DNA from: an uncultured Alphaproteobacteria bacterium
GTDB taxonomy: Bacteria; Pseudomonadota; Alphaproteobacteria; RF32; CAG-239
Direction of reading: 5' to 3'
NCBI GenBank assembly: GCA_944393215.1
Contig: CALXZL010000006.1
Span: forward strand, 29,119-93,118
Length of the DNA: 64,000 nt
In this document: one piece after another, positions 19,875-50,464 of the stretch
How positions within the stretch are numbered: the stretch's first letter is position 1
How the letters are laid out: every line of letters begins with the position of its first letter
Program-made: the position numbers and the translations under genes
The notes under the pieces: generated by a model
What the model was told of the DNA's origin: nothing
The model's database searches: none
Seen by the model: only the letters and a program-made list of their open reading frames with translations

Positions 19875-20165
19875 ATGAGAGAAATGATTCTTAAAGCAGT
19901 AGCAAATCCTCCCAAAATATTATGGGGGCCGTTTTTGCCGGTGTTGCTTAATATCGGCTTGCAATTTCCCATAATGTTTATGGCGATAGGTGTGCTGAAT
20001 ATGAACCCGCTGTTTTTTTTGGTGAGTATTTTGATAATGCATTTGGTCATTATATCTTTAGGCTTAAAAGAGCCTCATCTTTCCACCATGCTTCAGGCTT
20101 ATGGTCAAACATATAAGCCGACAACCAATCTATACAAAGCAAAGGGGATGAAATTTGCACCCTAG
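19875..20165 (+). CDS. virB3: VirB3-like T4SS protein
   Basis: 96-aa membrane protein. Two adjacent hydrophobic helices (ILWGPFLPVLLNIGLQFPIMFMA-type and FFLVSILIMHLVIISLGL) are followed by the short conserved end EPHLSTMLQAYGQTY, which matches the VirB3/TrbD family's 'P.....l......'. VirB3 sits in the inner membrane and works with VirB4; the two genes are adjacent and overlap by 11 nt here. A GAGGG ribosome site lies 8 nt before the ATG. The size is as expected for the family. Confidence 0.82.
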   Translation: MREMILKAVANPPKILWGPFLPVLLNIGLQFPIMFMAIGVLNMNPLFFLVSILIMHLVIISLGLKEPHLSTMLQAYGQTYKPTTNLYKAKGMKFAP

Positions 20166-22587
20166 TACCGATTTTTTTGATATATTTGTGCAAGGATTAT
20201 CGAGCGTTGAAGTAATGGTCGCTTTTATCGGCTTTATTTCAGCGGCGGCATTTGCCGGCTTTTGGGCAACCAAATTCGGACATTTGGTTTTGCCGCAACC
20301 TCGAGAATCACGAGTGTCAGACTTTTTGCCGTTTAATAAAATGTTATCAGACGGCATTACAATCAAATGCTATAATAATTCATTGGTCAGGGTATTCAAA
20401 GTAGAAGGTGTGGATTTGGCTTTTGCCAATGAAGAAAAAGTATTATCCATGCATGAAGCGCGCAAATCATGGATAGACGGGATGTCTGATTTGCAGGTAA
20501 CATGTCGAGTTATTACGTTACGCGAGAGAATACCGCTGGAAGAAGATGCCGGAGATTTCGGCAATCAGCTATTGGAACAAGTATCGCAAGTCTGGGCACA
20601 CAATATCGACAGAGTTTTTTCCAATACACACTACATAATATTGTCGGTTCCGGATCGACAAGATGCCTTAAAAGATTTAAACTATGCATCGCAAGCTTTG
20701 TTGGCAACCTTAAATGATTATGGCGTCAAAACCATGTATGAAACACCGGACAGCCCGGCAACAGATAGCCCTTTATATGTATTTTCCAGAATATGCAGCC
20801 CGATTTCTAAGCCCATGCCGAAGATCAGAAATTCGGAAGGGGCAATGCTTAATCAAATGTTGACGGCAGATCACATCCACTTTACCGGAGAAAACGGAAT
20901 AATCCGGTTTTTCTCGGGGGATCAAGAGTGCTTCGAAATAACTATGGGAATACGAACGTCCGGAGACTATATGGATGAAGCCATGATAGCCTCTTTATTG
21001 GCAATAGACTGCGAGTTAACATTGCTCCATAATATAAAACCGATATTTCGCTCTCATGCCCGAGCTTTGTTGATGCAACAACAAAAAATGGCGGGAATAA
21101 CCAGTTTTTCTCCGGAAGTTATAGAACAATATAGTGTGGCATTATCTTCGATTGAAGATAGTGATGCCAACTATCAAGCCTTAACCGAATATGCCATGTC
21201 GGTAATAATTCGCGGTCAGAGTATTGACGAGGTTGAATTTGGAGAAAGCGAAGTCCAAAGAATATGCCGTTTATTCAGTGTAACGCCGGTAAGAGAAGGC
21301 TGGGTTTGTGAAGCCACGTTTTTTAATCAGTTCCCGACCTATGATACTTATCCTCGGACATATAGATATTTGTCTCGTGTTGTTGCTACCGCCATATGTT
21401 TTGATAAGCCGTCTGAAGGTTTCAGTAAATCCGACTGGGGAAAAGGAGCCATCAGCATATTCAGAACGACCTCGGGTTCACCCTATCGTTTCCAATTTCA
21501 CGTATCTTCGGAAGAAGCTGCCGTTGCGCACTGTTGTATTATCGGACCGACCGGACAAGGTAAAACAACCTTGCTGACATTTTTGGCAGGACAAGCCATG
21601 CGCCACCATGATCTAAAAGTGTTTTTCTTTGATAGACACCGAGGTGCAGAAATCTTTACCAGGTCAATCGGCGGGGCATACATCGGTTTTGACGGCGATG
21701 AAAAAAATGTGTCCTTAAACCCGTTTGACTGCGAAAATATTCCCAATAACAGAGCCTTTTTACGTCGCTGGTTAAAAGCAATCACCATGGTTGATGATGC
21801 TTTGGCAGAAAAAGAGATAGCCCGAGCCGTAACCACGGCATTTGATTATCTTCGTCCGGAAGAAAGAATTATGAAAAATTTATATAAGAGCTGTTTTTCA
21901 CCGACGGGAAACATGCGCCGCGAGTTGTTCAAGTGGGTTAATCCGGATCAATACGGTAATATTTTCAATGCCGATACGGATAGTTTGGACTTAAAAAGCA
22001 AACGATTTATGGCATTTGACTTTACCCATATTTTTGAAGATGAAACTCTGGCTCCGGCAGTAATCAGCTACATTATGCACCGAATTATGTCAGAAACCGG
22101 AGATGCCGGTATTCCTGCCTTGATTATGATAGATGAAACAGCGCCGATGTTAAAACACCCGATGTTTAGAGATTATTTCATCATTGGCTTGCAAGAAGGA
22201 CGTAAAAAAAGACAAGCTTACTTATGTGCGTTTCAACAGCCAAGCATTATAGATAAATTAGGCGTCGGTGAAGTTATTCGCGGACAATGTCAAACCGTGT
22301 TATTTTTCCGCAATCCTCAAGCCCAGCTTGAAGATTATGCCAACTGGAATTTAACGCAAAGTGAGCTCGATTTCATATTTGGTCGAAGCTATCGCGATTT
22401 CCCGTACGCAATTTTATTATCTCGCCCGGCAACCGGAGAATCAGTGATATTAGATGTCGATTTGAGCGGATTAGGCGTATATCTGAAGCTGTATAATTCG
22501 GGCAGAAAAAATGTTTTATTGGTTGAAGAATTAATAAAAGAATATGGTGAAGACAACTTTGTTACAAAATATTTAAATATTGCGTAA
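20155..22587 (+). CDS. virB4: VirB4-type T4SS ATPase
   Basis: 810-aa ATPase of the VirB4/TrbE family, which powers substrate transfer and pilus assembly at the inner membrane. Walker A is GPTGQGKTT (about 463-471) and Walker B LIMIDE (about 655-660), with the family's FFDRHRGAEIF and EGRKKRQAYLCAFQQPS segments also present. A hydrophobic N-terminal helix (VEVMVAFIGFISAAAFAGFWA) is seen in VirB4s that pair tightly with VirB3. The start is TTG, overlapping the virB3 stop, with AGGGGA about 8 nt upstream; no ATG with a ribosome site is nearby. This is the only VirB4 in the window, unlike rickettsial loci with two. Confidence 0.92.
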   Translation: MHPSTDFFDIFVQGLSSVEVMVAFIGFISAAAFAGFWATKFGHLVLPQPRESRVSDFLPFNKMLSDGITIKCYNNSLVRVFKVEGVDLAFANEEKVLSMHEARKSWIDGMSDLQVTCRVITLRERIPLEEDAGDFGNQLLEQVSQVWAHNIDRVFSNTHYIILSVPDRQDALKDLNYASQALLATLNDYGVKTMYETPDSPATDSPLYVFSRICSPISKPMPKIRNSEGAMLNQMLTADHIHFTGENGIIRFFSGDQECFEITMGIRTSGDYMDEAMIASLLAIDCELTLLHNIKPIFRSHARALLMQQQKMAGITSFSPEVIEQYSVALSSIEDSDANYQALTEYAMSVIIRGQSIDEVEFGESEVQRICRLFSVTPVREGWVCEATFFNQFPTYDTYPRTYRYLSRVVATAICFDKPSEGFSKSDWGKGAISIFRTTSGSPYRFQFHVSSEEAAVAHCCIIGPTGQGKTTLLTFLAGQAMRHHDLKVFFFDRHRGAEIFTRSIGGAYIGFDGDEKNVSLNPFDCENIPNNRAFLRRWLKAITMVDDALAEKEIARAVTTAFDYLRPEERIMKNLYKSCFSPTGNMRRELFKWVNPDQYGNIFNADTDSLDLKSKRFMAFDFTHIFEDETLAPAVISYIMHRIMSETGDAGIPALIMIDETAPMLKHPMFRDYFIIGLQEGRKKRQAYLCAFQQPSIIDKLGVGEVIRGQCQTVLFFRNPQAQLEDYANWNLTQSELDFIFGRSYRDFPYAILLSRPATGESVILDVDLSGLGVYLKLYNSGRKNVLLVEELIKEYGEDNFVTKYLNIA

Positions 22588-30962: not shown

Positions 30963-31721
30963 ATGAATGAAATAAATTCTCTGGGGCAAGGAACAAAAAT
31001 CTTGTCCATAACGGACAAGAATAAAGATGCACATGTCAATTTTCTGAGCAAAGAAGAAAATGAAAAATTATCATTTAAGCTGGTATATTACATGTGGTTG
31101 TCGAGATTGTTCATTTTTTTCAGTACCATATCCCTTCTGGTATTTTTAAGCTCAAGTTTATCTTTATTTCGTCTGGCGCCGTTGGTGGAGGTAGAACCCT
31201 TTTTAATTATTCGACAAGATAATTCGGACAATTTAGTGAGATCAGAACCCATTTCCAATAATATGGCGTCCAAAGATTTATTATTGGAAACATTTATCAA
31301 ACAATATGTAATTTTACGCAATACTGTCATTAGTGATGAAGCAGAAATGAGTAGCCGCTGGCTTCCCGGCGGGATGATAAATTTCTTGTCGTCCTGGCCT
31401 GTATTTTACCAATTCCGCGACAGCACCTCCAAAATGATGGAAAAGAAGGAATATTATACATTTGTCAGAGAAGTCGAGATTATTTCCATTGGAAGGCAAG
31501 GCGGTAAAAAGAGTGAAGTTTGGAAGGTGGATTTTAAAACTTATGACTTAAGACCGGGCAATTCAAATACCGGAGGAGCATTGATAATGAAGGAAAGATA
31601 TTGGACGGCATCGGTCACCGCAAGATTTTATCCGGAAAGAGTATTTATGGGAAGAAGATTAATCAATCCGATTGGTTTTACGGTTGTTAGGTATTCACAA
31701 TCAGAAGTAGAAATATTCTAA
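30963..31721 (+). CDS. virB8: VirB8/DotI-like T4SS inner-membrane protein (copy 1)
   Basis: 252 aa bitopic protein. A short cytoplasmic N-terminus and one membrane helix (about 41-66) lead to a periplasmic NTF2-like domain. Family landmarks are APLVEVEPFLIIRQ just after the membrane, the ETFIKQYVILRN helix, and the closing NPIGFTVVRYS, which corresponds to the VirB8 'NPLGF.V..Y' signature. VirB8 nucleates assembly between the inner-membrane complex and the core. A second VirB8 follows after a small lipoprotein, and the two share the pattern 'RWLPGG' / 'RWMPGG', so they are paralogues. Confidence 0.85.
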   Translation: MNEINSLGQGTKILSITDKNKDAHVNFLSKEENEKLSFKLVYYMWLSRLFIFFSTISLLVFLSSSLSLFRLAPLVEVEPFLIIRQDNSDNLVRSEPISNNMASKDLLLETFIKQYVILRNTVISDEAEMSSRWLPGGMINFLSSWPVFYQFRDSTSKMMEKKEYYTFVREVEIISIGRQGGKKSEVWKVDFKTYDLRPGNSNTGGALIMKERYWTASVTARFYPERVFMGRRLINPIGFTVVRYSQSEVEIF

Positions 31722-32064: not shown

Positions 32065-32802
32065 ATGGTAGAAAGTCTTCAGGGAAATAACAATGTCGAA
32101 CAAAGACTAATCGGAAGCAACCAGCCTCGTAGAGCTCCGCAGGCGCAGAGACCGAGGACGGAGAACGTTTTTGTGGCAAATTTGGCAGAAAAAAGATATT
32201 TGTGGACAGCCAGAGCCTTTGCCATAGTTACGGCGATCAGTATATGTTGCAATATAGTTTTAATTTTGGCAATTTTCCAAGTTATGCCGCTTTTTCGCGT
32301 TGAACCCTTTTTGCTCTCGTTTCAAGATAAGGACGAGCAAGTGTTTAATATTGTTCCGCTAAAAAATTTAGAGGATGAAAAAGCCGTTACCGAAATTTTT
32401 GTAAGACAATATGTCTTGTTACGTAGTTCGTTTACATCCAATATTCCGGAAATGGAAGCGCGCTGGATGCCCGGCGGACCGATACAGGAAATGTCCTCTC
32501 CTGCCGTATATGAAGACTTTCAAAAAAGAACGGCAGTTAAAGCGTTGAGTATAATTAGAAGCAAAGGTTTAACGCGCGCCGTAAAGATTATATCCGTCAA
32601 CGAGCTAACAAGAGGATTATGGCAGGTCGAATATGAAACAAGAGATATGTTCCCTGACTCCAGCAAGCCTCAAGTTAATTACTGGACAGCTTCATTGAGA
32701 ATTACCTATAGAGGAAAAACAGTAAAATCGGGAGAGAGATTGAAAAATCCGGTTGGTTTTACGGTAGACAGATATTCATTAACCTATAACAAAGTACAAT
32801 AG
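32065..32802 (+). CDS. virB8: VirB8/DotI-like T4SS inner-membrane protein (copy 2)
   Basis: 245 aa bitopic protein. The cytoplasmic tail (about 50 residues, Arg/Gln rich) is longer than in copy 1; the membrane helix spans about 50-74. The periplasmic domain begins MPLFRVEPFLLSFQ and includes EIFVRQYVLLRSSF, the RWMPGGPIQEM motif, and closes NPVGFTVDRYS, the VirB8 signature. Two VirB8 paralogues also occur in rickettsial T4SS, where one is thought to be structural and the other regulatory or partner-specific. It directly precedes virB9. Confidence 0.85.
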   Translation: MVESLQGNNNVEQRLIGSNQPRRAPQAQRPRTENVFVANLAEKRYLWTARAFAIVTAISICCNIVLILAIFQVMPLFRVEPFLLSFQDKDEQVFNIVPLKNLEDEKAVTEIFVRQYVLLRSSFTSNIPEMEARWMPGGPIQEMSSPAVYEDFQKRTAVKALSIIRSKGLTRAVKIISVNELTRGLWQVEYETRDMFPDSSKPQVNYWTASLRITYRGKTVKSGERLKNPVGFTVDRYSLTYNKVQ

Positions 32803-32817
32803 TATAAAAAAGATGGA

Positions 32818-34545
32818 ATGGTGCAAAATATGCTTCACAGAATAAAAATATTTTTTCTCGGATTGTTGGTGCTGACACAAGCAGGCATAACACATGCCCA
32901 AGAAAACAGTCTGGACCAGAGTGCAGACCAAGATCAAGGACAGTATCGTTCCATGGATATGAGTTATGCCGGTTTTGGCTCAATCGGTATGATGCAAAGT
33001 GCCTGGCTGGATCCCTTGCAAAATTTAGGCGAAGGTCAAACCAAACCGGCATATTCAAAATATTATTGGTCTCCAGATTTGGTTTTGCCGGTTCGTCTGC
33101 GAGAGGGCATGATTACAATGATAAATTTCCCCGATTGGGAAATGGTTGAAGATGTTTATATTGGTGATAATTCAACATTTGACGGTCAAATATCCGGACC
33201 GAGCACAGTATTGTTGTATCCGAAAAAAGGAGCCAATGTCGGTGTTGATACCAACGTTATCATTTTTGGACGCTCGGGTAATCGCTATGTATTTTATGTA
33301 AGAAGTGAGGGCGTGAATACCGAGCGTTTGACAAACTCCATTATAGATATAGATGTCATAGGAGCGGAAAGCCCGAGTGGTTCATCGATAGGAGGTTTTG
33401 GAAGTAGTGTGTCGAACGGAGGTAAAGGAGCATCGGGTTATGGTAATAGCAACCCTAAATCTGTAGCGTCAACATACACACGCCGCAATCAAAAGGATGA
33501 TTGGCTGAAATCAATACCCGTAGATCCTGAAAAATTTCGCTTTGATATAGAGGTTTATGTCCCCAATCCGGAAGATGTTGTGATTGCACCGGAGAGAGTA
33601 TGGCGGGATGACATATTCACATACATAGATTTGGGAAACAAAGCCATAAATATGACACAGCGCCCGATAGTAACTTTAATAAATGAAAAAGTGGAAACGC
33701 CGGTTGGCTTTCGTTCTAAAGGACCGAATAACCGATTGATTGTGGTTGAAGCTGTCGGAGATATGGTCTTGAGAAACGGAAAGCGTATAGTTTGTTTAAA
33801 ACTGAGACGCTCAGATGCAGCCGGTTTGGAATATGGTGTCTATGCAGATGATGCAGCTCCGGGTTGGGATGTCCCGCCTCCGCTTAAAAACGGAGATTTG
33901 GAAACGGCATTTAGTCCGCAAGCAACGCAAAGCGGAGGAAAAGGCGTATCACCTTATAATATGTCGGGTAGCAATATGCAAGGAGCAGGAGAAAACGGAC
34001 AATATATTTATCCGCAATATGGTGTAAATAACGGAACAATGTCGAACATGCTCATCGGAACCGGCGGTGTAAATTCGGGAACCGGAATGATGATGATGAA
34101 CGGAAGTTCCGGTGCCGGGATGATGATGGGCGGAAATATGGGGGTAACGCCGCATCAGGGAGCCGTAGCCGGAGCTTATGATTATACAAAAATGCAGAGA
34201 CTGCCCAATCAAACAATAGCCAACCAAACCAACGGCAATAGCAAATATTTGCAGCAGTTTGGATATGGGAGCGGTTTTGATGCCAACACCAATATATCAA
34301 TAGAATTGGGTACGGATGCAGATGTCAGTAAGTTAGAAACGCTTTGGGACGGTTTGAGCCGTAAATATAAATCAGATTTGTCCGGATATGAACCGTTTTA
34401 CTCGGTAGATACTCCGGCAGACGGACAAGGAAAAGAACTATTCCATTTAAGAGTAGGTCCGGTAAAAAGTCTGGAAGAAGGAGATGCTGTATGCTCAAAG
34501 CTTGGAAGAAATGGAATATTTTGTAGTGTAGTCAGAACCCAATGA
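32818..34545 (+). CDS. virB9: VirB9-like core protein fused to a C-terminal SPOR domain
   Basis: 575 aa, about twice the usual VirB9. A signal peptide ends near THAQ. The N-terminal VirB9 domain (SPDLVLPVRLREGMITMINF, MVEDVYIGD, VIIFGRSGNRYVFYV) and the C-terminal VirB9 domain (APERVWRDDIFTYIDLG, VGFRSKGPNNRLIVVEAVG, LRNGKRIVCLKL) are both clear. A Gly/Met/Asn-rich linker (about 385-490) then leads to a SPOR domain (about 495-575) with DVSKLETLWDGLSRKYKSD, LFHLRVGPVKSLEEGDAVC and NGIFCSVVR, the alphaproteobacterial SPOR form. SPOR domains bind denuded septal glycan strands, so the T4SS core may be directed to the division site. The next gene overlaps by 4 nt. Confidence 0.87.
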   Translation: MVQNMLHRIKIFFLGLLVLTQAGITHAQENSLDQSADQDQGQYRSMDMSYAGFGSIGMMQSAWLDPLQNLGEGQTKPAYSKYYWSPDLVLPVRLREGMITMINFPDWEMVEDVYIGDNSTFDGQISGPSTVLLYPKKGANVGVDTNVIIFGRSGNRYVFYVRSEGVNTERLTNSIIDIDVIGAESPSGSSIGGFGSSVSNGGKGASGYGNSNPKSVASTYTRRNQKDDWLKSIPVDPEKFRFDIEVYVPNPEDVVIAPERVWRDDIFTYIDLGNKAINMTQRPIVTLINEKVETPVGFRSKGPNNRLIVVEAVGDMVLRNGKRIVCLKLRRSDAAGLEYGVYADDAAPGWDVPPPLKNGDLETAFSPQATQSGGKGVSPYNMSGSNMQGAGENGQYIYPQYGVNNGTMSNMLIGTGGVNSGTGMMMMNGSSGAGMMMGGNMGVTPHQGAVAGAYDYTKMQRLPNQTIANQTNGNSKYLQQFGYGSGFDANTNISIELGTDADVSKLETLWDGLSRKYKSDLSGYEPFYSVDTPADGQGKELFHLRVGPVKSLEEGDAVCSKLGRNGIFCSVVRTQ

Positions 34546-37500
34546 TGGAAAATAACAAAGAAGAACAAGCTCCGCTGACACATTCGGAGAATTATGTAAA
34601 AAAAACCAACCGCATAATATTAATTGTCGGTATATCTTCGCTTATTATTTTTTTATTGGGTGTAATGCTTCTGATTTCAGAAGATAACAACACATATGAG
34701 TATGAAGAACCCTCATTTACGGATAATGATGATGCCATCAATATCGGAGAAACAAACCCTCTGCTGGATAATAGTATCGAATTTCAAACCATAGAAGATA
34801 TAGGCACGCCGATAACCACAACACCTAATCCGGTGCCCATGGGGCAGGTTGTCCTTGGTACGGATGCTCAAAATGTTTTAACAATAGGAACAAACGGAAA
34901 AGCGTCAATAAAAATAGTAACGGTATTATTGGCAGATCCTCCGGCAGAAGGTTTTAGTTTTAATGACGGGTGCAGCGGTAAAACTTTGGTAGGAAAAGAT
35001 ACTTGCCATATCACAATGACATGGGTTCCGGTTGTTGCCGGAAATGTTCAAAACAATTTTATAATAACCTGGCATGAAACAAACGTAGCGGCACAAAATG
35101 CAAAGTCAGAAAAAGTTCCGGTGATCGGAAATGCCGTAACCAAAGAAGATTGCTCTTCGTGTGAGCTTCCGCTAAACGGAAACATCTCTGCCTCACAGGG
35201 AGATGCAGTAAAACAAGCCATTGGAACAGATGGACAAGTTATCGGCTCAATTGATAAAGAAGGTTTGGTTCGCGATAGCAATCAAAAAATAATAGGACGC
35301 ACAAATAGCAACGGATTGATAGTTGATGACAATGGCAACATAATAGGAATATCGGAAAACCAAAGAGTAGTCCTGGATGAAAATGGAAACGTAATCGGCT
35401 ATATCAACGCCGACGGACAGGTTGTAGATAAAAACGGCAATATCATCGGGCGTGTATTACCGGACGGAACGGTAGTAGATAAAGATGGAAATGTAATAGG
35501 TCGAGCCGTAGAGACAGGCTATGTATATGATGAAAATGGCAATGTCATCGGAAAAGTGATGCCGGACGGGAGTGTCGTAGATAAAGACGGCAATATTATA
35601 GGACGAGTAAACGGTAGGGGAGAGGTTGTAGATTTAAAAGGAAATATCCTAGGAACAGTATCCAAACAAGGACGAGTAGCCGTAGATAAAGACGGCAATA
35701 ATCTAGGCGTGGTCATGCCAAATGGTTCAGTCGTCAATTCATCGGGACGAGTTGTTGGTCATATAGATGAAAATGGCAATGTTGTAAAAGATAAAATTAT
35801 CGGCATGACAGGCAACCGAGGAAAATTGGCAGTTACATCAGAAGGGAAAGTGCTGGGATACATTAATGATAAAAATCAAGTTGTTGACAGTCATGGCAAT
35901 ATCACGGCACAGTTAGATGCCAATGGAAATGTATTACAAAGAAAAAAACTAGGCAGTATAGGAGAGAGCAGAAGGTTAGCTTATGACAGTAATGGCAATG
36001 TGATCGGCTATGTACAAGATGACGGAACGGTTGTAGATTTTGCCGGAAATGTTATCGGAACAGTAGATGAAAACGGACAAATCAGAGATAAAGACGGCAA
36101 AATAATAGGAAAAGCAGGTTCAGAGGTTAATTTAATATATGACAAAAACGGCAATGTAATCGGGTATGCGGAAGACGGAAAAGCCTACAATCTAAAGGGA
36201 GAATATATTGGTGAGGTTGATGAGAGTGGAAATGTATTACAAAGAAAAAAACTTGGTAGTATAGGAGAGAGCAGAAGATTAGCCTATGATAACAACGGAA
36301 ATGTGATAGGTTATATACAAGAGGACGGAACGGTTGTAGATTTTGCCGGAAATGTTATCGGAACAGTTGATGAAAACGGGCAAATTAAAGACAAAAACGG
36401 CAACATAATAGGAAAAGCGGGTTCTGAGGTTAATTTAATATATGATGAAAACGGCAATGTAATCGGGTATGCGGAAGACGGAAAAGCCTACAATCTAAAG
36501 GGAGAATATATTGATGAGGTTGATGAGAACGGAGATGTCTATACCAAAGATTTAGAAATTGTCGGCAAAATCGATACCTCAATGAATTTAGCCCTAGACA
36601 ATGAGGGAAATGTTATCGGATATATCGATAAAAACGGCACGGCAAAAGATTTTTCAGGATCTGAATTGGGAAAAGTCAACGAAAATGGTCGTATAATAGG
36701 TAACACCCCGGAAATTCTCGGAGCGTTGGTAGAAACGACAATGTTGCCGATAACCCCAAAAGGAACTGTGCTCGGACGAGTAGAAAATGACGGAAGCATC
36801 CACAATCCGCAACAAGAGATAATAGGAAGAGTTTTATCAAACGGACTAGTTAAAGACGTATCCGGTTCAGAAGTAATCGCCCAAATGCAAAAAGGCGGAT
36901 TGGTTGTTGGTTTTGGATGCAAACAAATAGGCATTCTGGATAAGGACGGCAAAGTAAAGCAAAATAATGAAGATACGCAGGCAAAGATAAATTTTGACGG
37001 AACGGTAACGGATAGTTCAGGAAAATATTTGGGCGAAGTTGTTCCGGTAGGGAAAATTTATGACAACAAATGCAGCTATATTGGCGATTCTCGCGTGGAT
37101 GGACTAGCCTATAACAATGCCGGAAAATATATAGGATGTGTCAATCCGGACGGTAGTGTTTTGGATGAAAAAGGAATAGTTATCGGAAGAGTTGCCCAAA
37201 GAGGATTAGTCGTTGATAATAATAATAAATATTTGGGTATGGTCGGAGAGAACAACTTAGTTTATAACGTAAAAAAAGTAGCAGTTGGATGTCTCAATAT
37301 GGACGGCGAGGTTATAAATAAAAAAGGAGGCTATGCCGGAAGATTATTGGGTAAAAAATATGCCTTTGATTTAGAAGGAAATTTTTTGAATGTGGTAGAT
37401 GATGCCGGAATAATTTCTCTGCCGGGAGATGAAGGAAAATTATCAGTCAATGATTTAGTTTTGGATTCCAAAAATAATATCATCGGAATAACTTTGGATG

Positions 37501-38579
37501 AAAAAAGTAGCATATATGATGCGCAAGGACAAATTATTGGGCGTCCATTTTTTGATGGAAAGGTATATAATGCCAAAGGAATCAACGTAGGAAAGCTAAA
37601 GGGAGAATATAGTTTTTACGGTAAGTCTCTGGGAAGAGCAATAGCTCCGGAAAAAGTTGTTGATTTTAATGGTAACATAATAGGAATGAGCCTTCCGGAT
37701 GGACAAGTGGTGAATAAATTTGGAGAAGTTTTAGGAAATATAGACGCTAAGGGCATATTCTTTAACAAAAAGGGAGAATATCAGGGTGCCTTACTGAAAC
37801 AAGGAGCTGCAATTGGTTATGATGGCTCATACTTGGGATATGTAACTCAAACGGCAAAAGTTATGGATTCGGAAGGAAAAGATAATGGAAAAGCCACTTC
37901 AGACGGAAAGATAATCAATGCCAAAGGAGAAGTTATAGGAGAAGTGATTCCAGAAAACATGGTTATAGACACATGGGGACATTACAAAGGAATGGTCAAC
38001 GGATTGGGAGATATCTGGAATATGAACAATGAAACCATTGGCATAATTTTACCCGGAGGCTCATCAGACAACGGATACAGCTTATTAAGAAATGGACCTG
38101 TTATTAATTTTTCGGGAGAAATCAGCGGAGCAGTTCAAACAAACGGAGCCGCAATAGATGAAAATAATACGGTAATCGGCAGAGCATTACCGGACGGAAG
38201 CGTGATAAGCGAAGCCGGAAAATTATACGGAGATGTCTTAACCGGAGATATAATAATCGGCAATAATGATAAAGTTGTGGGTTATGTAAATATAGATGGT
38301 ACAATTCGTGCAAAAGATGGTAACATAATCGGCAGAACATTGTCTAAAGATTTGGCAATGGATAATAACGGAAAAATAATCGGCAGAATATTCAAAATCG
38401 GAGCAACTGTTTTGGATAATAATGGTAGATATGTCGGAAGATTGACTCCGGAAGGAAAAGTTATTAACTCCGGCGGAGAGACAATGGGATATATAAAGAA
38501 TAGCGGATCTTATATAGATTTGGATAAAAAAGTGTCTGGCTACGTATTGCAAGAAGTAGCAAAGAACCGGAGGAATTAA
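34542..38579 (+). CDS. Membrane-anchored 17-residue-repeat protein, N-terminal half of a split VirB10/DotG
   Basis: 1345 aa. A short cytoplasmic tail and one membrane helix (about 24-46, RIILIVGISSLIIFLLGVML) precede a beta-sandwich-like domain (about 85-205) with two cysteines (DGCSGK, KDTCHITMTW). From about 220 to the end the protein is a long series of degenerate 17-residue repeats of the type VVDKDGNIIGRVLPDGT, as seen in DotG/IcmE-like proteins and some LEA-type sequences. It has no VirB10 C-terminal domain; that lies on the next gene, 3 bp downstream. The pair therefore seems to divide the parts of a DotG/VirB10: this one gives the inner-membrane anchor and a periplasmic fibre. It overlaps virB9 by 4 nt. 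Confidence 0.78.
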   Translation: MMENNKEEQAPLTHSENYVKKTNRIILIVGISSLIIFLLGVMLLISEDNNTYEYEEPSFTDNDDAINIGETNPLLDNSIEFQTIEDIGTPITTTPNPVPMGQVVLGTDAQNVLTIGTNGKASIKIVTVLLADPPAEGFSFNDGCSGKTLVGKDTCHITMTWVPVVAGNVQNNFIITWHETNVAAQNAKSEKVPVIGNAVTKEDCSSCELPLNGNISASQGDAVKQAIGTDGQVIGSIDKEGLVRDSNQKIIGRTNSNGLIVDDNGNIIGISENQRVVLDENGNVIGYINADGQVVDKNGNIIGRVLPDGTVVDKDGNVIGRAVETGYVYDENGNVIGKVMPDGSVVDKDGNIIGRVNGRGEVVDLKGNILGTVSKQGRVAVDKDGNNLGVVMPNGSVVNSSGRVVGHIDENGNVVKDKIIGMTGNRGKLAVTSEGKVLGYINDKNQVVDSHGNITAQLDANGNVLQRKKLGSIGESRRLAYDSNGNVIGYVQDDGTVVDFAGNVIGTVDENGQIRDKDGKIIGKAGSEVNLIYDKNGNVIGYAEDGKAYNLKGEYIGEVDESGNVLQRKKLGSIGESRRLAYDNNGNVIGYIQEDGTVVDFAGNVIGTVDENGQIKDKNGNIIGKAGSEVNLIYDENGNVIGYAEDGKAYNLKGEYIDEVDENGDVYTKDLEIVGKIDTSMNLALDNEGNVIGYIDKNGTAKDFSGSELGKVNENGRIIGNTPEILGALVETTMLPITPKGTVLGRVENDGSIHNPQQEIIGRVLSNGLVKDVSGSEVIAQMQKGGLVVGFGCKQIGILDKDGKVKQNNEDTQAKINFDGTVTDSSGKYLGEVVPVGKIYDNKCSYIGDSRVDGLAYNNAGKYIGCVNPDGSVLDEKGIVIGRVAQRGLVVDNNNKYLGMVGENNLVYNVKKVAVGCLNMDGEVINKKGGYAGRLLGKKYAFDLEGNFLNVVDDAGIISLPGDEGKLSVNDLVLDSKNNIIGITLDEKSSIYDAQGQIIGRPFFDGKVYNAKGINVGKLKGEYSFYGKSLGRAIAPEKVVDFNGNIIGMSLPDGQVVNKFGEVLGNIDAKGIFFNKKGEYQGALLKQGAAIGYDGSYLGYVTQTAKVMDSEGKDNGKATSDGKIINAKGEVIGEVIPENMVIDTWGHYKGMVNGLGDIWNMNNETIGIILPGGSSDNGYSLLRNGPVINFSGEISGAVQTNGAAIDENNTVIGRALPDGSVISEAGKLYGDVLTGDIIIGNNDKVVGYVNIDGTIRAKDGNIIGRTLSKDLAMDNNGKIIGRIFKIGATVLDNNGRYVGRLTPEGKVINSGGETMGYIKNSGSYIDLDKKVSGYVLQEVAKNRRN
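35925..36530 (+). repeat. Tandem 303-bp duplication in the repeat gene
   Basis: Two adjacent 303-bp units (35925-36227 and 36228-36530), each encoding 101 residues and starting GNVLQRKKLGSIGESRRLAY. They are nearly identical, well above the similarity of the other 17-residue repeats, so this is a recent in-frame duplication. Confidence 0.9.
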
Positions 38580-38582
38580 ACG

Positions 38583-41500
38583 TTGAATTTTATACGGGGA
38601 AAATTATTTGGACAAGTGTTTCACACGGCAAAAGTATTAGCTTTTGTCTTTTGTTGTTTATGCATTAAAGCGCAAAATGTTCAAGCACAAGAAATCACGG
38701 CAATAGATTTCAACGGAGAAGTTTTAGGAAAAGTTATTCCGGACGGAAATGTTGTCGGTATGGACAATCGCTTAATCGGAAATATCACTGCAGACAGCAT
38801 GATTATTAATTTTGACGGAAAACTAATCGGCGGAGTTGTCCCTCAAGGAATAGCCATATCCAATGATACCAGCTTTTTGGGTAAGGTCAGCACGGATGGT
38901 ACGGTTCGTTCTCCGTCTGGTAAAGTTTTGGGAAAAGCCTTACCGAGTGGATTGGTTGTTAATGACTATTTTGAAATATTAGGAGCTGTATTATTTCCCG
39001 GTCTTGTATATGATGATTCGGGAAATACGGTCGGAAGATTAACCGGAGACGGACAATATTCCGATTTGCAAGGAAGAAAAATTGGCTTTATGACGCCGGA
39101 TGGTTACGCATATCGAAGAGTAGGAGAAGAATTTCTTTTAGACGGCCGTTTAATATCAAGTAAAATGGTTGTTTCGCAAAATGGAGATTTTTTGGGTAGT
39201 ATCACGCCGGGAGGAGAAGTCTCAGATTTTGACGGGAATATTATCGGAAAAATAAAAGCAAACGGTTATGTCTATAATGATAAAAACGAGATTATCGGGG
39301 GTATGGTAAGATCCGGCTATGCTTTTGATAATTATGGTCGTTATTTGGGCTATATTGGGTATAACGGCGAGGTTCAAAATAACGGAAAAATAATGGGGCA
39401 TCAACGTGCCGACGGTTCAATCTTAAATGAAAATCAAGAAGTTGTTGGTGTAACGATAAGTCTTTCCGCCACGGCAACGGATAACAAAGGTCAATATATA
39501 GGAAGAATAATACCGGACGGAAATATTGCCCGTACCAAAGATGCCAACGGAGTAATAATGGCAAGAGGAGCCATATTAAATTCCAAAGGAGAATTATTTG
39601 GCAATTTAATAAAGACCGGCCCCGTTTTTGATTATAAATCAAAGATAATTGGTCATGCTTTAAATAATGGTCAAGCAATTTCATTAGGTGGCAGTAATAT
39701 AGGCAAAGTGCAAAAAAATAATGTATATAACATGCAAGGACGCATTATTGGTCAGACCATGAGCGCACAACTGGTTTATGATAATAATAATCAATTTATC
39801 GGCGTGAGCGGAATCAATGGAAAAGTGGGAGACGCAGGTAATCAAATACAGGTAACGCCATATGGTAGTGTATTGAATTCAGAAGGTGCTTTTGCCGGAA
39901 TGAGTTTCCTGCCGCAACCACTTTATAATAAAATCGGCGCTTTATTTGCCGAGATAAATTTGGCAGGTAATGCCGAAAGCGCTGGTAAAAATATAGAAGG
40001 GAAAGTAACTCAGACCGGAATTTTGGTTAATGAACAAAATGAATTTTTGGGACAAATTTCTTTAGCCGACTATGCCGTAAATCATCAAGGTCAAAATATA
40101 GGCTTGGTCTCGCAAACCAATATAGTTACGGATAGAAATAAAAAGATAATAGGCAAAATTATGCCCGGCGGTGCAGTAGTAAAGTCGGACAAGGAAACAA
40201 CGTCAGATATAATGCCGCAAATAGGAAACGGATTATCAGCCAATATGTTTTTTGGTTTTGACGGAATATTACAAGGCTATGTAAATTCTGACGGGCAGGT
40301 ATTTGATTTTAATTACAGCCCAATCGGTAAAGTTCTTGCCGACAAAAAGGTGATTGATAACAACAATATCTTAAGCGGCTATGTTATGTCTGTACAAAAT
40401 GTAGCAGATGATAATTGTAATTTATCAGGTTTTGTAACCCCGAAAGGAGAGGTGAGAAATTTCAAAGATATTTTTGTTGGCCATATACTTGGAAACGGAC
40501 AAGTTATTAATGAAACGGGAGCAGTTGTCGGGCACGGCATTCCGGAGGGGCTGGTAACAGACCAAAACGGAAAAATAATCGGAAGTTTTAACGGTGTCGG
40601 ACAAGTCATGGATTCCCAAGGAAAAATTTTGGGATGTTCCGATTATCGTCATTTTGTAAAAAATAATAACGGAGAATTTTTTGCCGGCTATATTCCGCAA
40701 GGATCCGTAATCGGTTTTGATGGAAAAATCAAAGGAAGAAGTTCGGAAGAAGGCAGCGTTATCGGAATCGACAGCAAAAATTTAGGCTATGTTCAACCAA
40801 GCGGCAATGTTAAAAACCGAAGCGGGGAATCTATAGGACAAATATTAAGATACAAGGTAGCTTTTGATAATTCCGATCATTATATGGGCAGAATATCTGA
40901 TGACGGCAATGTCTATGACGAGAAAAATAACCCAATAGGAGCGGTTGATTTTGACGGTTTTGTTGTTCGGGAAAATGATAAAATTGGCTATGCCTTATAT
41001 GATTTCTATGTTTATGACAATAATTTCAAGGTCGTCGGCTTAATAGAAAAAGACGGAGTGGTAAAAAATTTCGGAAACCGAACATTGGGCAGATTGAAAA
41101 GAGGATTTGTTCTCAACAATTCGGATGAAGTTATTGCCCGTGGAAATCGAGATTTTTATATAAGATCCGCCAGACAAGAAATTATGGGAGAATTATTGCT
41201 TAACGGAGATGTGGTTAACGATTCTCAGCAAGTTATAGGTAAATTAGGCACGTCAGGCAATATATTAAATGATAAGGGAGAAAAAATAGCGCAAGCCAAC
41301 CCCTTGCAATTTTATAGTCGAATAGGCTTAGTTGAAGAATCAGGAAAAAATATAGCTATTGGAGGAGACGGTACGGTTCTCGGCTATGTTGATGCCAAAG
41401 GCAATCTTTTTGATAAAGACGGAAATAAAATAAAAGATCAAAAAGTGAATAAAAAGGGACTTATTGTTAATAGTTCGGGAGAAGTCGTTGGCAAGGTTAT

Positions 41501-43655
41501 AAATCCGAACAATGTTGTTGATAAAGACGGAAATATTATTGGTCAAAAGCGAGATGACGGAAGTGTTGTTGACGAAAACGGCGTAGAAATCGGAAAGATA
41601 GATGCATCCGGTTTTGTGAGAAACAGCAACAATGAGATAATTGGCTATAGCGGAGATAGTAATAATGTTGTTGACGAAGACGGAAAAATAATCGGTCGTT
41701 TGCAGGAAAACGGCAACGTAATAAATGAAAAAGGTCAAACCATAGGCAGTAAAGATGCCAATAACAACATTGTTGATAAAGACGGGAATGTCATCGGTAT
41801 TTTAGATGATAGCAATGCCGTAAGAGATAAAACAGGAAAAATTATTGCCCATGTTCAACCGGATAATAAAGTTGTAGATTTCAAAGGAAAAATTATCGGA
41901 ATTAAAGATGCTACCGGAAGAATATTAGATAGTATGGGTAATCTTCTTGGAAAAGTTTTCAGTGACGGGAAGATTTTTGATGAACGAGGAAATTTGGTTG
42001 GACAGTTGCAAGCTGACGGCACGATCAAAGATTTAAATGGAAAAGTTGTCGGTCAAATAGATGATGAAGGCAACGCTCGAGATGCCAATAAAAATATCAT
42101 AGGTGGCATGGGAAATAATTGGTATGAAAAAGTAAAATCTCCGAAAATAAAGAAAAGAGATGAAAGCATACCAGTAATCGGTACTTTGGGTGATGAAAAG
42201 AAGCCGCAAACGTTAGATACAAAATATCGCAAATCGTTAAACATAGCTCTGACACCGGATGGAAGTTATTTGGGCGAAATTATGGATGACGGAAGTGTTG
42301 TTGATAAAAAGGGAAGAGTAATCGGTCACAAATTACCGGATGGTTTGGTTGTTGACAAGGACGGAACCTTAATCGGAATTGAGGAAATAGAAAAGCCCAA
42401 AGGAGGAGAAATTTTTGTTCCGGCAGGTAGTTTTGGCGAAGGATCGGCATACGGAACCGGAGTAGGGCCGGGAGATAATCTCGGGCCTGGCGGTGGGTAT
42501 GGTCCCGGAGAAAGGTATAATCCACAGAGGAGTGCCGCATTGTCGGTAGCGCAAGGACAAAGACGCCAAAATATGCAGGTAGGAAAAATCAGCACCAATA
42601 TCAGAAAAGAAGCTTTTGACGGAATGCAAAAAGATTGGAGCGAACAAGGTATAGAGAAATCTATCTCCTCATGGCGTGTAGATATGAGTGAAATGATATT
42701 GTCAGATAAACCGATTCCGGCAGTTTTGGCTCGCTCGATAGATTCAAACAACCCGACACCGGTAACAGCCTTTGTTGAAAGAAATGTCTATGCGGAAGAA
42801 GGAAGAAATATATTAATACCGGCAGGCAGCAGATTTATAGGAGAATTGGGTGGTTTGTCACCGACATCGGAAGCATCTTCTGAATCGGCAAAAGTTCAAA
42901 TTAGTTGGCAACGCTTAATACGTCCAGACGGATCAATGTTTAAGTTTGACGGTTTAACGGCAGATGCCCAAGGTCGCGGAGGCGCATTAGGTTACATGGA
43001 CAAACAGTTGTTCAAGCGCTACACCATGCCGATAATGACCACGGTTTTAACAAGTACCATGGCATATATGATGTCAACGGATGATAGCAGTGACGGAGAA
43101 ACGGAAAGCTCAAAACAAGAAGCCGCCAATGATGCGCGTCAAAATTTCTTAGACCAAATGAATCAGATGTTTGAACAAATATTGCAAGACAAATCAAGTA
43201 TACAAGCAATGTCGTATGTCCCTGCGGGAACACGAATTATTATTTTCCCGAAAGTTGATTTGTGGTTAAGAACGGTAGATAATGATGCCGATGCTCAATA
43301 CATGGGAGAAGCAAAAGTTTTGATTAATGATGAGGCTCGTCTCCAAGGTCAAGGCGGACCGGTAGGAACATCAGGTGGCGTATCATCCACAGGGGGAAGT
43401 TCCGATAACGGACAAGTAAGTTATGAAGAGAGTAACGATGGTGGCTCGCAATCAGTCCCATTAATTGCTTCGGACAGATATAAAAATAATAGGAATAAAC
43501 AACCGGTAGCAGTTCCGCCGCCACCGCCGTCATCATCAGGCAGTACAGCATCAACACCGTCAAGCAGCAGTGCGGGAACATCAACAGGCGGTTCAAACAC
43601 AAGCAGTAGCGGAAAAAGTGGATCGAGTAATACATCGGTTCCCCAACTATTCTAA
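38583..43655 (+). CDS. virB10: VirB10/DotG-like core protein with signal peptide and long 17-residue repeat region
   Basis: 1690 aa. Instead of the usual VirB10 membrane anchor it has a cleavable-looking signal peptide (AKVLAFVFCCLCIKAQNVQAQ). About 1230 residues of 17-residue repeats (for example VVDKDGNIIGQKRDDGS) follow, then a Gly/Pro-rich linker (FGEGSAYGTGVGPGDN) and a VirB10/TrbI C-terminal domain (about 1366-1590): MSEMILSDKPIPAVLARS, ILIPAGSRFIGELGG, SWQRLIRPDGSMFKFD, the GALGYMDKQLFKRYTMPIM antenna region, and YVPAGTRIIIFPKVDLWLR. A Ser/Gly/Pro tail ends it. The start is TTG, 3 bp after the preceding stop, so translation probably depends on the upstream gene. With no membrane helix, its inner-membrane link would have to come from its neighbour. 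Confidence 0.87.
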   Translation: MNFIRGKLFGQVFHTAKVLAFVFCCLCIKAQNVQAQEITAIDFNGEVLGKVIPDGNVVGMDNRLIGNITADSMIINFDGKLIGGVVPQGIAISNDTSFLGKVSTDGTVRSPSGKVLGKALPSGLVVNDYFEILGAVLFPGLVYDDSGNTVGRLTGDGQYSDLQGRKIGFMTPDGYAYRRVGEEFLLDGRLISSKMVVSQNGDFLGSITPGGEVSDFDGNIIGKIKANGYVYNDKNEIIGGMVRSGYAFDNYGRYLGYIGYNGEVQNNGKIMGHQRADGSILNENQEVVGVTISLSATATDNKGQYIGRIIPDGNIARTKDANGVIMARGAILNSKGELFGNLIKTGPVFDYKSKIIGHALNNGQAISLGGSNIGKVQKNNVYNMQGRIIGQTMSAQLVYDNNNQFIGVSGINGKVGDAGNQIQVTPYGSVLNSEGAFAGMSFLPQPLYNKIGALFAEINLAGNAESAGKNIEGKVTQTGILVNEQNEFLGQISLADYAVNHQGQNIGLVSQTNIVTDRNKKIIGKIMPGGAVVKSDKETTSDIMPQIGNGLSANMFFGFDGILQGYVNSDGQVFDFNYSPIGKVLADKKVIDNNNILSGYVMSVQNVADDNCNLSGFVTPKGEVRNFKDIFVGHILGNGQVINETGAVVGHGIPEGLVTDQNGKIIGSFNGVGQVMDSQGKILGCSDYRHFVKNNNGEFFAGYIPQGSVIGFDGKIKGRSSEEGSVIGIDSKNLGYVQPSGNVKNRSGESIGQILRYKVAFDNSDHYMGRISDDGNVYDEKNNPIGAVDFDGFVVRENDKIGYALYDFYVYDNNFKVVGLIEKDGVVKNFGNRTLGRLKRGFVLNNSDEVIARGNRDFYIRSARQEIMGELLLNGDVVNDSQQVIGKLGTSGNILNDKGEKIAQANPLQFYSRIGLVEESGKNIAIGGDGTVLGYVDAKGNLFDKDGNKIKDQKVNKKGLIVNSSGEVVGKVINPNNVVDKDGNIIGQKRDDGSVVDENGVEIGKIDASGFVRNSNNEIIGYSGDSNNVVDEDGKIIGRLQENGNVINEKGQTIGSKDANNNIVDKDGNVIGILDDSNAVRDKTGKIIAHVQPDNKVVDFKGKIIGIKDATGRILDSMGNLLGKVFSDGKIFDERGNLVGQLQADGTIKDLNGKVVGQIDDEGNARDANKNIIGGMGNNWYEKVKSPKIKKRDESIPVIGTLGDEKKPQTLDTKYRKSLNIALTPDGSYLGEIMDDGSVVDKKGRVIGHKLPDGLVVDKDGTLIGIEEIEKPKGGEIFVPAGSFGEGSAYGTGVGPGDNLGPGGGYGPGERYNPQRSAALSVAQGQRRQNMQVGKISTNIRKEAFDGMQKDWSEQGIEKSISSWRVDMSEMILSDKPIPAVLARSIDSNNPTPVTAFVERNVYAEEGRNILIPAGSRFIGELGGLSPTSEASSESAKVQISWQRLIRPDGSMFKFDGLTADAQGRGGALGYMDKQLFKRYTMPIMTTVLTSTMAYMMSTDDSSDGETESSKQEAANDARQNFLDQMNQMFEQILQDKSSIQAMSYVPAGTRIIIFPKVDLWLRTVDNDADAQYMGEAKVLINDEARLQGQGGPVGTSGGVSSTGGSSDNGQVSYEESNDGGSQSVPLIASDRYKNNRNKQPVAVPPPPPSSSGSTASTPSSSSAGTSTGGSNTSSSGKSGSSNTSVPQLF

Positions 43656-43669
43656 AGGAGAAGAATATT

Positions 43670-44638
43670 ATGACATTTGCGGTATTAGAATCAGTGCTTC
43701 GCCCTTTATCTTATTGGTATAATCAGGACAATATCGAGGAAGTTGCAATCAACAGATCCGGTCAAATATGGCTTCGCCTAAGAGGAAAAAGAGCCTATCC
43801 GTGGGTAATGTATAAGGATGAAAAATTAACCAAAGATTATTTAGTTGATTTGTTATACATCATAGCCAACACATATGAGCTTCCGTTTGATCCGGTATCA
43901 GGAAGTCCGGTTGTATATGCCACGATTCCCGGAGAACACCGTTTTTCGGCAATAGCTGGAAAAAATGTCATGTATGATCAGGATGATTTAACCGGAGGCG
44001 TTGCTTTAACCATCCGTATTCATAGTGACGATGTAGCTTTTGGTTTGGGAGATTATGGATTATCACAAGGCGCAAAACTACATCAAATAAACGTATTAAA
44101 GCAAATCCAAGATCCGGAAGATCCTTATGAAAAATTGTTACTGAGTATCAAAAGAGGGGATCATATATTGGTATCAGGAGCAACGGCAACCGGAAAAACT
44201 ACTTTTTTGAATAACCTGCTAAAAATTTTGGATATACATAAACGAATATTAACCATAGAAGATACTCGAGAACTTATAGTTCCGCATCCGAACCGCGTAC
44301 ACATAACGTTGTCTCGTACCGAGCAAACCAATGATTTGACATATGCCAAGGTGATAGACTTGGTGGTTCGTTTTACGCCGGATGCCATAATCGGCGGAGA
44401 GATATCAACGAGTAATGCTTCGGCAATATGGGAATTGATGGGATCAGGTCACGACAACTGTCTGGCAACCATCCACGCTGAAAGCTCGGAAGCAGCGTAT
44501 AATGCTTTTGTTGATCGTATTATGCACGCTTCTCCAACAATCGATAGAAACAAAACAATACAAGAAATGAAGAAAAAGTTGCGTGTTGTTCAAATCAATC
44601 GAGACGGCAACCTCCGTGCCGTTACGGAAGTTACGTAG
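43670..44638 (+). CDS. virB11: VirB11-type T4SS ATPase
   Basis: 322 aa hexameric ATPase that works with VirB4 at the cytoplasmic entrance. The N-terminal domain (SYWYNQDNIEEVAINRSGQI, SPVVYATIPGEHRFSAI) precedes Walker A SGATATGKTTF (about 167-177), the Asp box IEDTREL, Walker B PDAIIGGEIS, and the His box GHDNCLATIHAESS. The length is typical and VirB11 features distinguish it from the PilT- and PilQ-type ATPases elsewhere in the window. AAGGAG lies upstream of the ATG, and the gene ends the plus-strand T4SS operon before a bidirectional terminator. Confidence 0.92.
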   Translation: MTFAVLESVLRPLSYWYNQDNIEEVAINRSGQIWLRLRGKRAYPWVMYKDEKLTKDYLVDLLYIIANTYELPFDPVSGSPVVYATIPGEHRFSAIAGKNVMYDQDDLTGGVALTIRIHSDDVAFGLGDYGLSQGAKLHQINVLKQIQDPEDPYEKLLLSIKRGDHILVSGATATGKTTFLNNLLKILDIHKRILTIEDTRELIVPHPNRVHITLSRTEQTNDLTYAKVIDLVVRFTPDAIIGGEISTSNASAIWELMGSGHDNCLATIHAESSEAAYNAFVDRIMHASPTIDRNKTIQEMKKKLRVVQINRDGNLRAVTEVT

Positions 44639-50300: not shown

Positions 50301-50464
50301 GGAGGTTGCTGCAAAATCATATTATTAAAATCGGCTTTTTGTTTGTCATCTAAGATATGCATTTGCCGAAAAATATTTAAAAGGCGTTGAACGATGACGA
50401 TCGGATCTTCAACTCCGGCCACCTTTTTATTCCTACGCGGAGATAATATATTTTCCTCGCTCAA
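47390..50464 (-). CDS. Large acidic repeat protein with poly-Lys tract
   Basis: 1024 aa, no signal peptide or membrane helix. The N-terminal 60-70 residues look folded (DPIVIVQRLLNIFRQMHILD, MCNVLPGGSVLQEYIDDLEE). A Gln/Asn-rich region with helical segments containing 'ITKAITESQ', 'ISGALKESN' and 'VISKALTESD' comes next, then an uninterrupted run of about twelve lysines (near residue 480), then an extremely acidic C-terminal half with nine 32-residue repeats. It is the first gene of the cassette after the XRE gene's terminator. Charge segregation and repeats suggest a flexible scaffold or a secreted effector-like protein; neither is demonstrated. Confidence 0.6.
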   Translation of the reverse strand: MSEENILSPRRNKKVAGVEDPIVIVQRLLNIFRQMHILDDKQKADFNNMILQQPPEIRHMCNVLPGGSVLQEYIDDLEEQNGINPNQNLGFSDIAPDTSNILASALATDNQPQAKESQPQTAQNNNINAQTLELQKQMLLMMKNMQNQPQPQYTNQPAAQTIVKPDAAFAQDIAAVISKALTESDEKRSKELYLMTQALTKSQQQQTASLLKELTAKENSASIVSTAEGNVKVIDNTKEITKAITESQLEMAKMFLQQNAINANNNANNANNIQINNVPFPNQQDLIADIIKAQSQLFREMAKEQTKEISTIISGALKESNHLSNQFLIKALSEFQKENLNFLKQQAQQKTVLYQPLPNVVGSDVQPADFDYKQTHQDKEEGAAAGFKRVFSNMFNRAQNKQQEQEVDVNNLQNQEMGALPDVNDVFNETEKSDTLTENLSDISDDVDLETNLSEEPEDTISKKKKKKKKKKKKNESENNIKSVSDANLELERLFGFGTESENIPDNNASVSSENELFENIPLQTEISSDASDVASDQIISDFSNLETNQDFSVPLTEDTQITNLSDSKPDEIVDTSPVYSPEENVYDETDHNVLELHDIPSDIDINFNAEESLSESSDETPQQNTAAQDDENGEDWAWEYEDDASDESSDETPQQNTAAQEDVNSEDWAWEYEDNASDESSDTTLQQNASAQEDENGEEWAWEYEDDASDESSDETPQQNAAAQDDENGEDWEWEYEDDVSDESSDETLQQNAAAQDDENGEDWAWEYEDDASDESSDETPQQNAAAQDDVNSEDWEWEYEDDASDESSDTTLQQNAAAQEDENGEDWEWEYEDDASDESSDTTLQQNAAAQEDENSEDWEWEYEDDASDESSDTTLQQNAAAQEDENGEDWEWEYEDDTSDESDTSIVSDISTEGEASNISAQSSETEDNQNSDADFSELFDSFTSSVSDPYIADNSYTDGLENSNLQSDIISLQPDIPAPSNPVRPQRQHIPPSSDMFFIPDTKTESDENEPYHVNSDLKP
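47753..48616 (-). repeat. Nine tandem 96-bp repeats coding acidic 32-residue units
   Basis: Nine in-frame copies of a unit of the form SSDETPQQNAAAQDDENGED followed by WEWEYEDDASDE. Variants alternate TP/TL, DE/TT, DD/ED and DWAW/DWEW in a mosaic, which suggests repeated unequal crossing-over. Long open frames on the opposite strand here are by-products of the repeat. Confidence 0.95.

Follow-up and report, generated by a model that had tools for sequence, protein, structure and literature searches.

A VirB10-type protein almost certainly encoded as two genes in a lineage of uncultured Alphaproteobacteria

Is an exceptionally long component of a bacterial secretion machine encoded by one broken gene or by two sound ones? 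The question is raised by a 64,000-nucleotide stretch of DNA from an uncultured Alphaproteobacteria bacterium (contig CALXZL010000006.1; the whole stretch is called the window below). It carries genes of a type IV secretion system (T4SS) in the order virB8-virB9-virB10-virB11, with the position between virB9 and virB11 occupied by two adjacent open reading frames: gene A (34542..38579, + strand) and gene B (38583..43655, + strand; all features of A and B given below lie on this strand). Gene A stops with TAA, three base pairs (bp; ACG) follow, and gene B starts with TTG. Because both genes share one reading frame in the window and one stop separates them, a single stop codon in a long frame would look alike, and a comparative test is needed. 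Judged from that comparison of sequences, the locus almost certainly reflects a genuine two-gene split of a VirB10-type protein, as opposed to an artefact of assembly or mutation; A and B are two separately started frames, and it is their two products together that correspond to VirB10.

Two genes in the place of virB10

The product of gene A comprises 1345 amino acids (aa) and consists of an inner-membrane helix, an ASH-like domain, and repeats of the beta-flower type. A preliminary description of this DNA had assigned A a membrane helix and repeats but no VirB10 domain, and coordinates, hydropathy, and Pfam agree with it: no TrbI/VirB10 domain was matched in A by Pfam. The protein has a single strong hydrophobic peak at residues 25–43 (34614..34670; 19-aa hydropathy 2.98), with KKTNR just before it, and the helix would be oriented with its N terminus in and its C terminus out. 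The ASH, or choice-of-anchor-D, Ig-like domain at residues about 91–175 (34812..35066) is matched weakly: PF15780, aligned to residues about 98–173, scores 18.5 bits (E 0.0023) against the whole protein and 22.1 bits (E 0.00017) against its first 253 residues, both below the curated cut-off of 27, and NF012200 matches the region at E 7.6e-5, also below its curated cut-off. The repeats are matched as 15 Bflower_2 stretches (E 1.8e-88, far over the cut-off).

Among 58 complete A proteins, open-frame lengths range from 1051 to 2204 codons, and the gap profile places most of this variation in window-A residues 401–700 (35742..36641), which contain a 303-bp tandem duplication (35924–36528) detected by Tandem Repeats Finder. 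Open frames of 2094 (L134), 2204 (L142), and 2734 (L056) codons suggest that repeat number in A varies more than twofold. The repeats that follow, residues 701–1345 (36642..38576), form an almost gap-free block of conserved length that runs up to the break and ends in a conserved tail, QEVAKNRRN (38550..38576).

Gene B encodes 1690 aa. It was described beforehand as lying 3 bp downstream with a TTG start, a signal peptide, repeats, and the VirB10 C terminus, and all of these were recovered. Its first codons (38583..38687) specify a putative Sec-type leader with a hydrophobic core followed by an AQA site, after which cleavage would occur. From the motif EITAIDF onwards, residues 1–850 (38691..41240) form an almost gap-free repeat block of conserved length and residues 851–1200 (41241..42290) a length-variable one; in total, B contains 11 Bflower_2 stretches (E 7.8e-74, far over the cut-off). 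The TrbI/VirB10 C-terminal domain lies at residues 1372–1562 of the protein (42696..43268) and is matched by PF03743 at 124.2 bits (cut-off 35; E 7.5e-36), and no ASH domain was matched in B by Pfam at E 0.1. A probable ribosome-binding site for B, GGAGG (38569..38573), falls within the Arg-Arg codons of the NRRN with which A ends. In VirB10 terms, A would be the lower part of the protein and B the upper part.

A scan of named genomes yielded 169 relatives, of which the 80 best were compared together with the window, giving 81 loci. The titles of the 80 relatives name uncultured Alphaproteobacteria or proteobacteria, including Azospirillum sp. CAG:239, and 15 of them name a gut site (cecum, colon, rumen, etc.). 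The exception among the 80 is L108, titled as a Lactobacillaceae metagenome-assembled genome; its locus resembles the rest, and mislabelling of the bin is the most likely cause. A script located both flanks of the junction in 74 loci; in the other seven (L067, L068, L082, L094, L107, L119, and L136), a contig end or masking interrupts the locus.

Every one of the 74 visible junctions is split. The B start, picked by script via a ribosome-site score, lies at −1 to +19 nucleotides (nt) relative to the A stop, and the two genes stand in all three relative frames (28, 26, and 20 junctions). The stop codons of A are mixed (TAA 30, TAG 29, and TGA 15), as are the start codons of B (TTG 35, GTG 21, and ATG 18). 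In each B, 26–37 residues precede the ITAIDF-type motif, and GGAGG is found within the last four codons of A in 65 of the 74 loci. As all three relative frames occur, general read-through and a simple nonsense origin of the present pairs are both excluded.

A recent nonsense mutation, an assembly error, or a frame break in one long VirB10, perhaps read through, would account for the window taken by itself, in which only TAA ACG separates two frames in register. Fused relatives do exist, and a leaderless frame break has occurred in such a gene: L147 (genome G229, family f91) is a single-chain-type giant VirB10 with a plain frame break and no leader. The consistent split, the three frames, the mixed stops, and the leader of 26–37 residues on each B leave this explanation hardly credible, and for the window's group it is refuted. 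The view that the arrangement is not a simple frame break, already put forward in the preliminary description, is thus upheld. The same account had singled out fused versions in homologous loci as the sign of a local artefact; fused genes were indeed found, but in other families, and the artefact reading fell with the uniform split of the window's own group.

The leader-like segment differs from its surroundings in both composition and conservation. Its best hydrophobic 11-mer has a median of 2.56 and a minimum of 1.76 over the 74 loci, against a median of 1.00, a 95th percentile of 1.79, and a maximum of 2.54 in random repeat stretches, and a loosely defined signal-peptidase-like motif closes it in 73 of 74. 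Mean pairwise identity is 0.17 over the last 25 leader residues, 0.76 over the first 25 residues of B from EITAIDF, and 0.81 over the last 25 residues of A; at two interior control places, it is 0.48 and 0.37.

Together, A and B amount to 3035 aa, whereas distant VirB10 relatives are mostly open frames of about 360–620 aa. The early statement that the combined length lies far above an ordinary VirB10 therefore stands, with the qualification that single-chain relatives of 2157–2838 aa exist in other families of the class.

Relatives and the history of the split

A TrbI domain is present in 122 of 154 genomes of the order. Most of the corresponding open frames span about 1380–1890 codons, and some of the shorter ones are truncated at the end of a contig; two longer frames (2106 and 2372 codons) belong to contigs seen to be split as L089 and L070, and two of about 25,000 codons are implausible run-ons, one of which crosses masked sequence (L094). 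An even draw of 385 genomes of the class gave 75 matches at E 1e-10, and a phylum-wide search at E 1e-40 gave one genome in 398, namely the window's own.

Unsplit giants are found in other families. Family f74 has a giant single open frame in 12 of 12 genomes (1975–2684 aa; that of G389 is cut by a contig end), f91 has frames of 2232 and 2193 aa, and f23 has one of 2838 aa, with a shorter frame of 1280 aa in f4. Seven single-chain relatives that were fetched (L059, L060, L143–L146, and L149) all begin with a strong N-terminal helix. A weak ASH match is present in four of them (L059, L143, L144, and L146); L060, L145, and L149 have none at E 0.1, although the stretch looks alike by eye. No internal leader is obvious in these seven relatives, hydropathy alone being not decisive here. 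A distant split with a leader is seen in L150 (genome G079, family f51), where just the last part of A is on the contig; in gene B of this genome, the frame is broken once more, at a 23-bp direct repeat recognised by eye. In a tree of TrbI domains, 14 split rows fall on one side of a single branch and the fused proteins on the other (support 93/90).

As fused relatives occur in other families and the window's own group is split at every visible junction, these data point to an old fission and not to a local artefact. The simplest reading is a single event, and most likely an ancestral long single-chain VirB10 split once. That ancestral chain, made up of helix, ASH-like domain, hairpin-repeat array, and TrbI domain, would have broken between two repeats, with the upstream half retaining the inner-membrane anchor and the downstream half gaining a Sec leader and a ribosome-binding site of its own, mostly in the last codons of A.

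Two other histories can be considered. In the first, the whole virB10 gene was duplicated and each copy lost what the other kept: TrbI in one, and the helix and ASH-like domain in the other, which gained the leader. The same kind of repeats in both halves would be expected of this, repeat arrays favour duplication, and profiles of the A block and the B block partly match each other's protein. At E 0.1, however, A gave no match to TrbI and B none to ASH; moreover, positions 12–675 of the B-block profile align as one stretch to residues 871–1535 of the single chain of G320, as fission would lead one to expect, although the repeat register leaves this ambiguous. Duplication with reciprocal loss is therefore regarded as improbable. 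In the second history, two genes came first and the single-chain giants arose from them by fusion, and the tree gives no polarity against it, being drawn from its midpoint without outgroups. However, several other lineages have single chains with an N-terminal helix and a C-terminal TrbI domain, whether or not these carry repeats (L059, L060, and L152), and VirB10 is described, in the parts of the sources available, as a single polypeptide that reaches from the inner to the outer membrane (PMC9371333, PMC12624023). This leaves later fusion somewhat less probable again than duplication, and a single old fission is retained below.

Three short TrbI/VirB10 open frames from further members of the class, L061, L062, and L153 (genomes G049, G040, and G351; 608, 537, and 576 aa), are of another kind. 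Their starts look like lipoprotein leaders (…TAC-GK, …ASC-GE, and …TGC-GR) followed by an Ig/ASH-like domain, for which L061 and L062 have Pfam matches. From their sequences, a lipid, in place of a helix, appears to anchor these VirB10s.

The two ends at the break

If the chain was broken, what became of the ends? Two segments of 345 residues each were modelled with AlphaFold2: the C-terminal end of A, from 69 natural sequences, and the start of B counted from behind the leader, from 70. The preliminary description had proposed structure prediction of the repeat regions alone and as a pair; the ends alone gave confident models, with a predicted local distance difference test (pLDDT) of 90.5 and a predicted template modelling score (pTM) of 0.86 for A, and a pLDDT of 93.6 and a pTM of 0.90 for B. 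Both are runs of beta-hairpins with a unit of about 17 residues, and they are all-beta except for two 3-residue helical turns in B. The first strand of the B model occupies residues 2–5 and the last strand of the A model residues 331–336; in the models, the break thus falls cleanly between whole hairpin units. Searches by sequence, with A whole and with profiles of both ends, found no solved relatives of the repeats.

Conservation is highest at the two flanks of this predicted boundary. When column entropy was compared in 15-residue blocks over 300 residues on each side of the break, the lowest of 20 blocks was the last one of A (0.47 bits) and, in B, the first one from EITAIDF (0.51 bits). 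Part of the conservation at the A end is accounted for by the ribosome site. Nevertheless, NRRN is retained in eight of the nine loci that lack GGAGG, which suggests selection on the protein ending as such. The 25 residues that precede this motif have a mean identity of 0.744 compared with 0.483 further in. The final six residues of A are predicted to be disordered in isolation even though their block is the most conserved, as would be expected of a docking tail. Around the break, about 1500 residues are of nearly fixed length (645 of A and 850 of B).

That the break falls neatly at a repeat boundary, and that conservation peaks at both broken ends, points to end-to-end docking rather than to the lateral pairing of two fibres that the preliminary description had considered. 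A and B would be translated back to back and would reach the periplasm by different routes, A through its helix and B through a leader that is cleaved. B would then build the outer-membrane core with VirB9, and the conserved C-terminal repeats and tail of A would dock end-on to the conserved N-terminal repeats of B, so that a strut across the periplasm would be restored with no peptide bond between its halves, and any signal from inner to outer membrane would pass through a non-covalent joint. That the end of A docks onto the start of B in the periplasm is rated as fairly probable. The best explanation overall, held with a similar degree of confidence, is an old VirB10 fission in one alphaproteobacterial lineage with halves that dock in the periplasm.

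Several points weigh against this explanation. Internal 15-aa hydropathy maxima reach 1.50–1.99 in eight single-chain or broken relatives, and leader values run from 1.43 upward (median 2.13), with 19 of 74 below 1.93; given this overlap with internal repeats, hydropathy alone is no clean separator. Outlying split loci lack the NRRN tail: A ends in KGKGH in the f2 genome and in SLGD in the f51 genome. The branch that separates split from fused rows has support under the tool's star threshold, and in a tree that also included four short VirB10s, the split rows need two changes, three of the short ones falling inside the split group; the tree used above was rebuilt without these four, which probably cause long-branch trouble. 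The model of the B N terminus has no global fold match in the PDB, the best TM-score among 50 listed matches being 0.17. Covariation between the last 290 residues of A and the first 290 of B (74 sequences, effective 62) is not enriched at the junction. The lengths of A and B are anticorrelated (Spearman −0.53), but the relation is gone under independent contrasts (r 0.055, p 0.66). Contact between A and B is inferred.

The idea that A and B compensate for each other's length was dropped on account of the null result with independent contrasts, which attributes the correlation to shared ancestry. Foldseek returned 650 matches to the B N-terminal model, with a root-mean-square deviation above 13 Å in the 50 listed, and these represent local hairpin likeness only.

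Instead of a single strut, B alone could form the outer-membrane core and A a separate periplasmic part of the inner membrane, for example, a sheath around the stalk. The lack of any test that indicates contact, the flat covariation at the junction, and the share of the A-end conservation explained by the ribosome site would all fit such an arrangement. It accounts less readily for conservation that peaks on both sides and extends to A residues outside the ribosome site, for the conserved start of B, which encodes no ribosome site, and for the long blocks of fixed length that flank the break in both proteins. Separate parts are accordingly considered unlikely, though less so than either of the two alternative histories, and docking remains the preferred reading.

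A more tentative suggestion concerns what the split does. Fission may uncouple the inner- and outer-membrane halves of the machine, so that the copy numbers of A and B could differ to match ring symmetries and the energy-sensing signal ascribed to VirB10 could pass through a non-covalent, possibly reversible, joint formed by hairpin repeats stacked end to end; this is put forward as a possibility that is rather less probable than its opposite. If it were true, the question of symmetry mismatch would become testable through separate counts of A and B. More generally, a split that occurs naturally throughout a lineage suggests that VirB10 does not require covalent continuity, and such a system allows its inner and outer halves to be counted, tagged, or removed independently of each other.

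Known systems and the surrounding genes

With VirB10, TrbI, and ComB10, the pair shares the C-terminal TrbI domain (in B), the N-terminal inner-membrane helix (in A), and the position between virB9 and virB11. It differs in having two chains, an extra ASH-like domain, and over two thousand repeat residues; the N-terminal helix with its cytoplasmic tail is present on A only, and B has a leader instead. The giant single-chain VirB10s of f74, f91, and f23 likewise combine an N-terminal helix and TrbI with repeats of this kind but are unsplit. VirB10 itself, according to the portion of the source available, spans from cytoplasm to outer membrane, contacts VirB4 and VirD4, gates the outer-membrane channel, and is listed with copy numbers of 14/16/12/2x6 along its length (PMC12624023).

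Both A and B strongly match the beta-flower families PF21784 and PF21785. Beta-flower proteins are described, in the available part of the source, as small barrels of 8, 10, or 12 strands (PMC10584680); in A and B, by contrast, dozens of units stand in a row within a secretion machine.

CagY of Helicobacter pylori is a single chain. Like the pair described here, it is a VirB10 relative enlarged by a repeat region, which recombines, as far as the accessible text of the sources goes (PMC5954226, PMC8534286); its repeat module is reported, again in a source available in part, to be alpha-helical (PMC2581425), in contrast to the beta-hairpin models obtained here.

DotG/IcmE likewise has a VirB10-like C terminus and is, in the parts available of two sources, an integral inner-membrane protein that is also outer-membrane-associated (PMC7511231, PMC8486379). 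The preliminary description had seen the layout of DotG in the two genes, and in this, it was not supported. The NCBIfam matches of B are to VirB10, ComB10, and TrbI models, and its sequence relatives in the PDB are ComB10 (E 2.2e-18), two TraF, TrwE, and VirB10; no DotG match was found for B in NCBIfam, nor any DotG chain among PDB sequences at E up to 1, the presence of DotG in these libraries being unchecked. The neighbouring genes are also of the VirB type, and the DotG label was therefore set aside.

Of 27 window proteins scanned with Pfam (A and B included), nine had no match, and the families found include VirB2, 4, 6, 8, 9, and 11 as well as pilus-type ones; Dot components, such as DotH, DotC, DotD, and DotF, were not among the matches, a result that leaves the nine matchless proteins aside. 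On the Dot side, there are weak NCBIfam matches to LegT in the ASH region of A (18.6 bits, cut-off 1200) and to DotB for the VirB11 gene (20.0 bits, cut-off 463). By its gene content, the secretion system is of the VirB type.

A description of a split VirB10 was not found in the literature, which was covered mostly by titles and the starts of abstracts, with most subscription papers and all of bioRxiv outside this scope. VirB10 as one chain and its enlarged repeat forms are known; the lineage-wide two-gene split, as read from these sequences, appears to be new.

Upstream of A on the + strand are two VirB8 paralogues (30963..31721 and 32065..32802; PF04335) and the gene for VirB9, of the CagX family (32818..34545; open reading frame list and Pfam), whose last 4 nt are shared with the start of A. 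This VirB9 bears a C-terminal SPOR domain that could tie the outer-membrane core to peptidoglycan. The VirB11 ATPase gene follows B (43670..44638, +; PF00437; TIGR02788 at E 3.6e-42, below its curated cut-off), and a VirB4 ATPase gene lies further upstream (20155..22587, +; PF03135; TIGR00929 at E 1.3e-108, also below the curated cut-off). Pfam and NCBIfam scans also place a VirB2-like gene near A and B. Elsewhere in the genome, two further genes have VirD4-type PF02534 matches, of which the first is strong and the other weak, and within the window, a pilus-type cluster of secretin, PilO, T2SSE, and T2SSF lies at about 4–14 kb.

On the opposite strand, two proteins match VirB6/TrbL, and two large neighbours (51717–54833 and 54890–58396) do not. 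The product of 51717–54833 (−) has multiple helices, and its residues 77–275 give a match to PF21277 (VgrG3-like, C-terminal; E 1.1e-24) and a weak one to GH46; it may be a fusion of a T4SS membrane protein with a domain that hydrolyses the cell wall. Also near the T4SS genes, 47390–50464 (−) encodes a 1024-aa protein with a 96-bp tandem array of 9.1 copies, composed of acidic units of the EDWEWEYEDD type.
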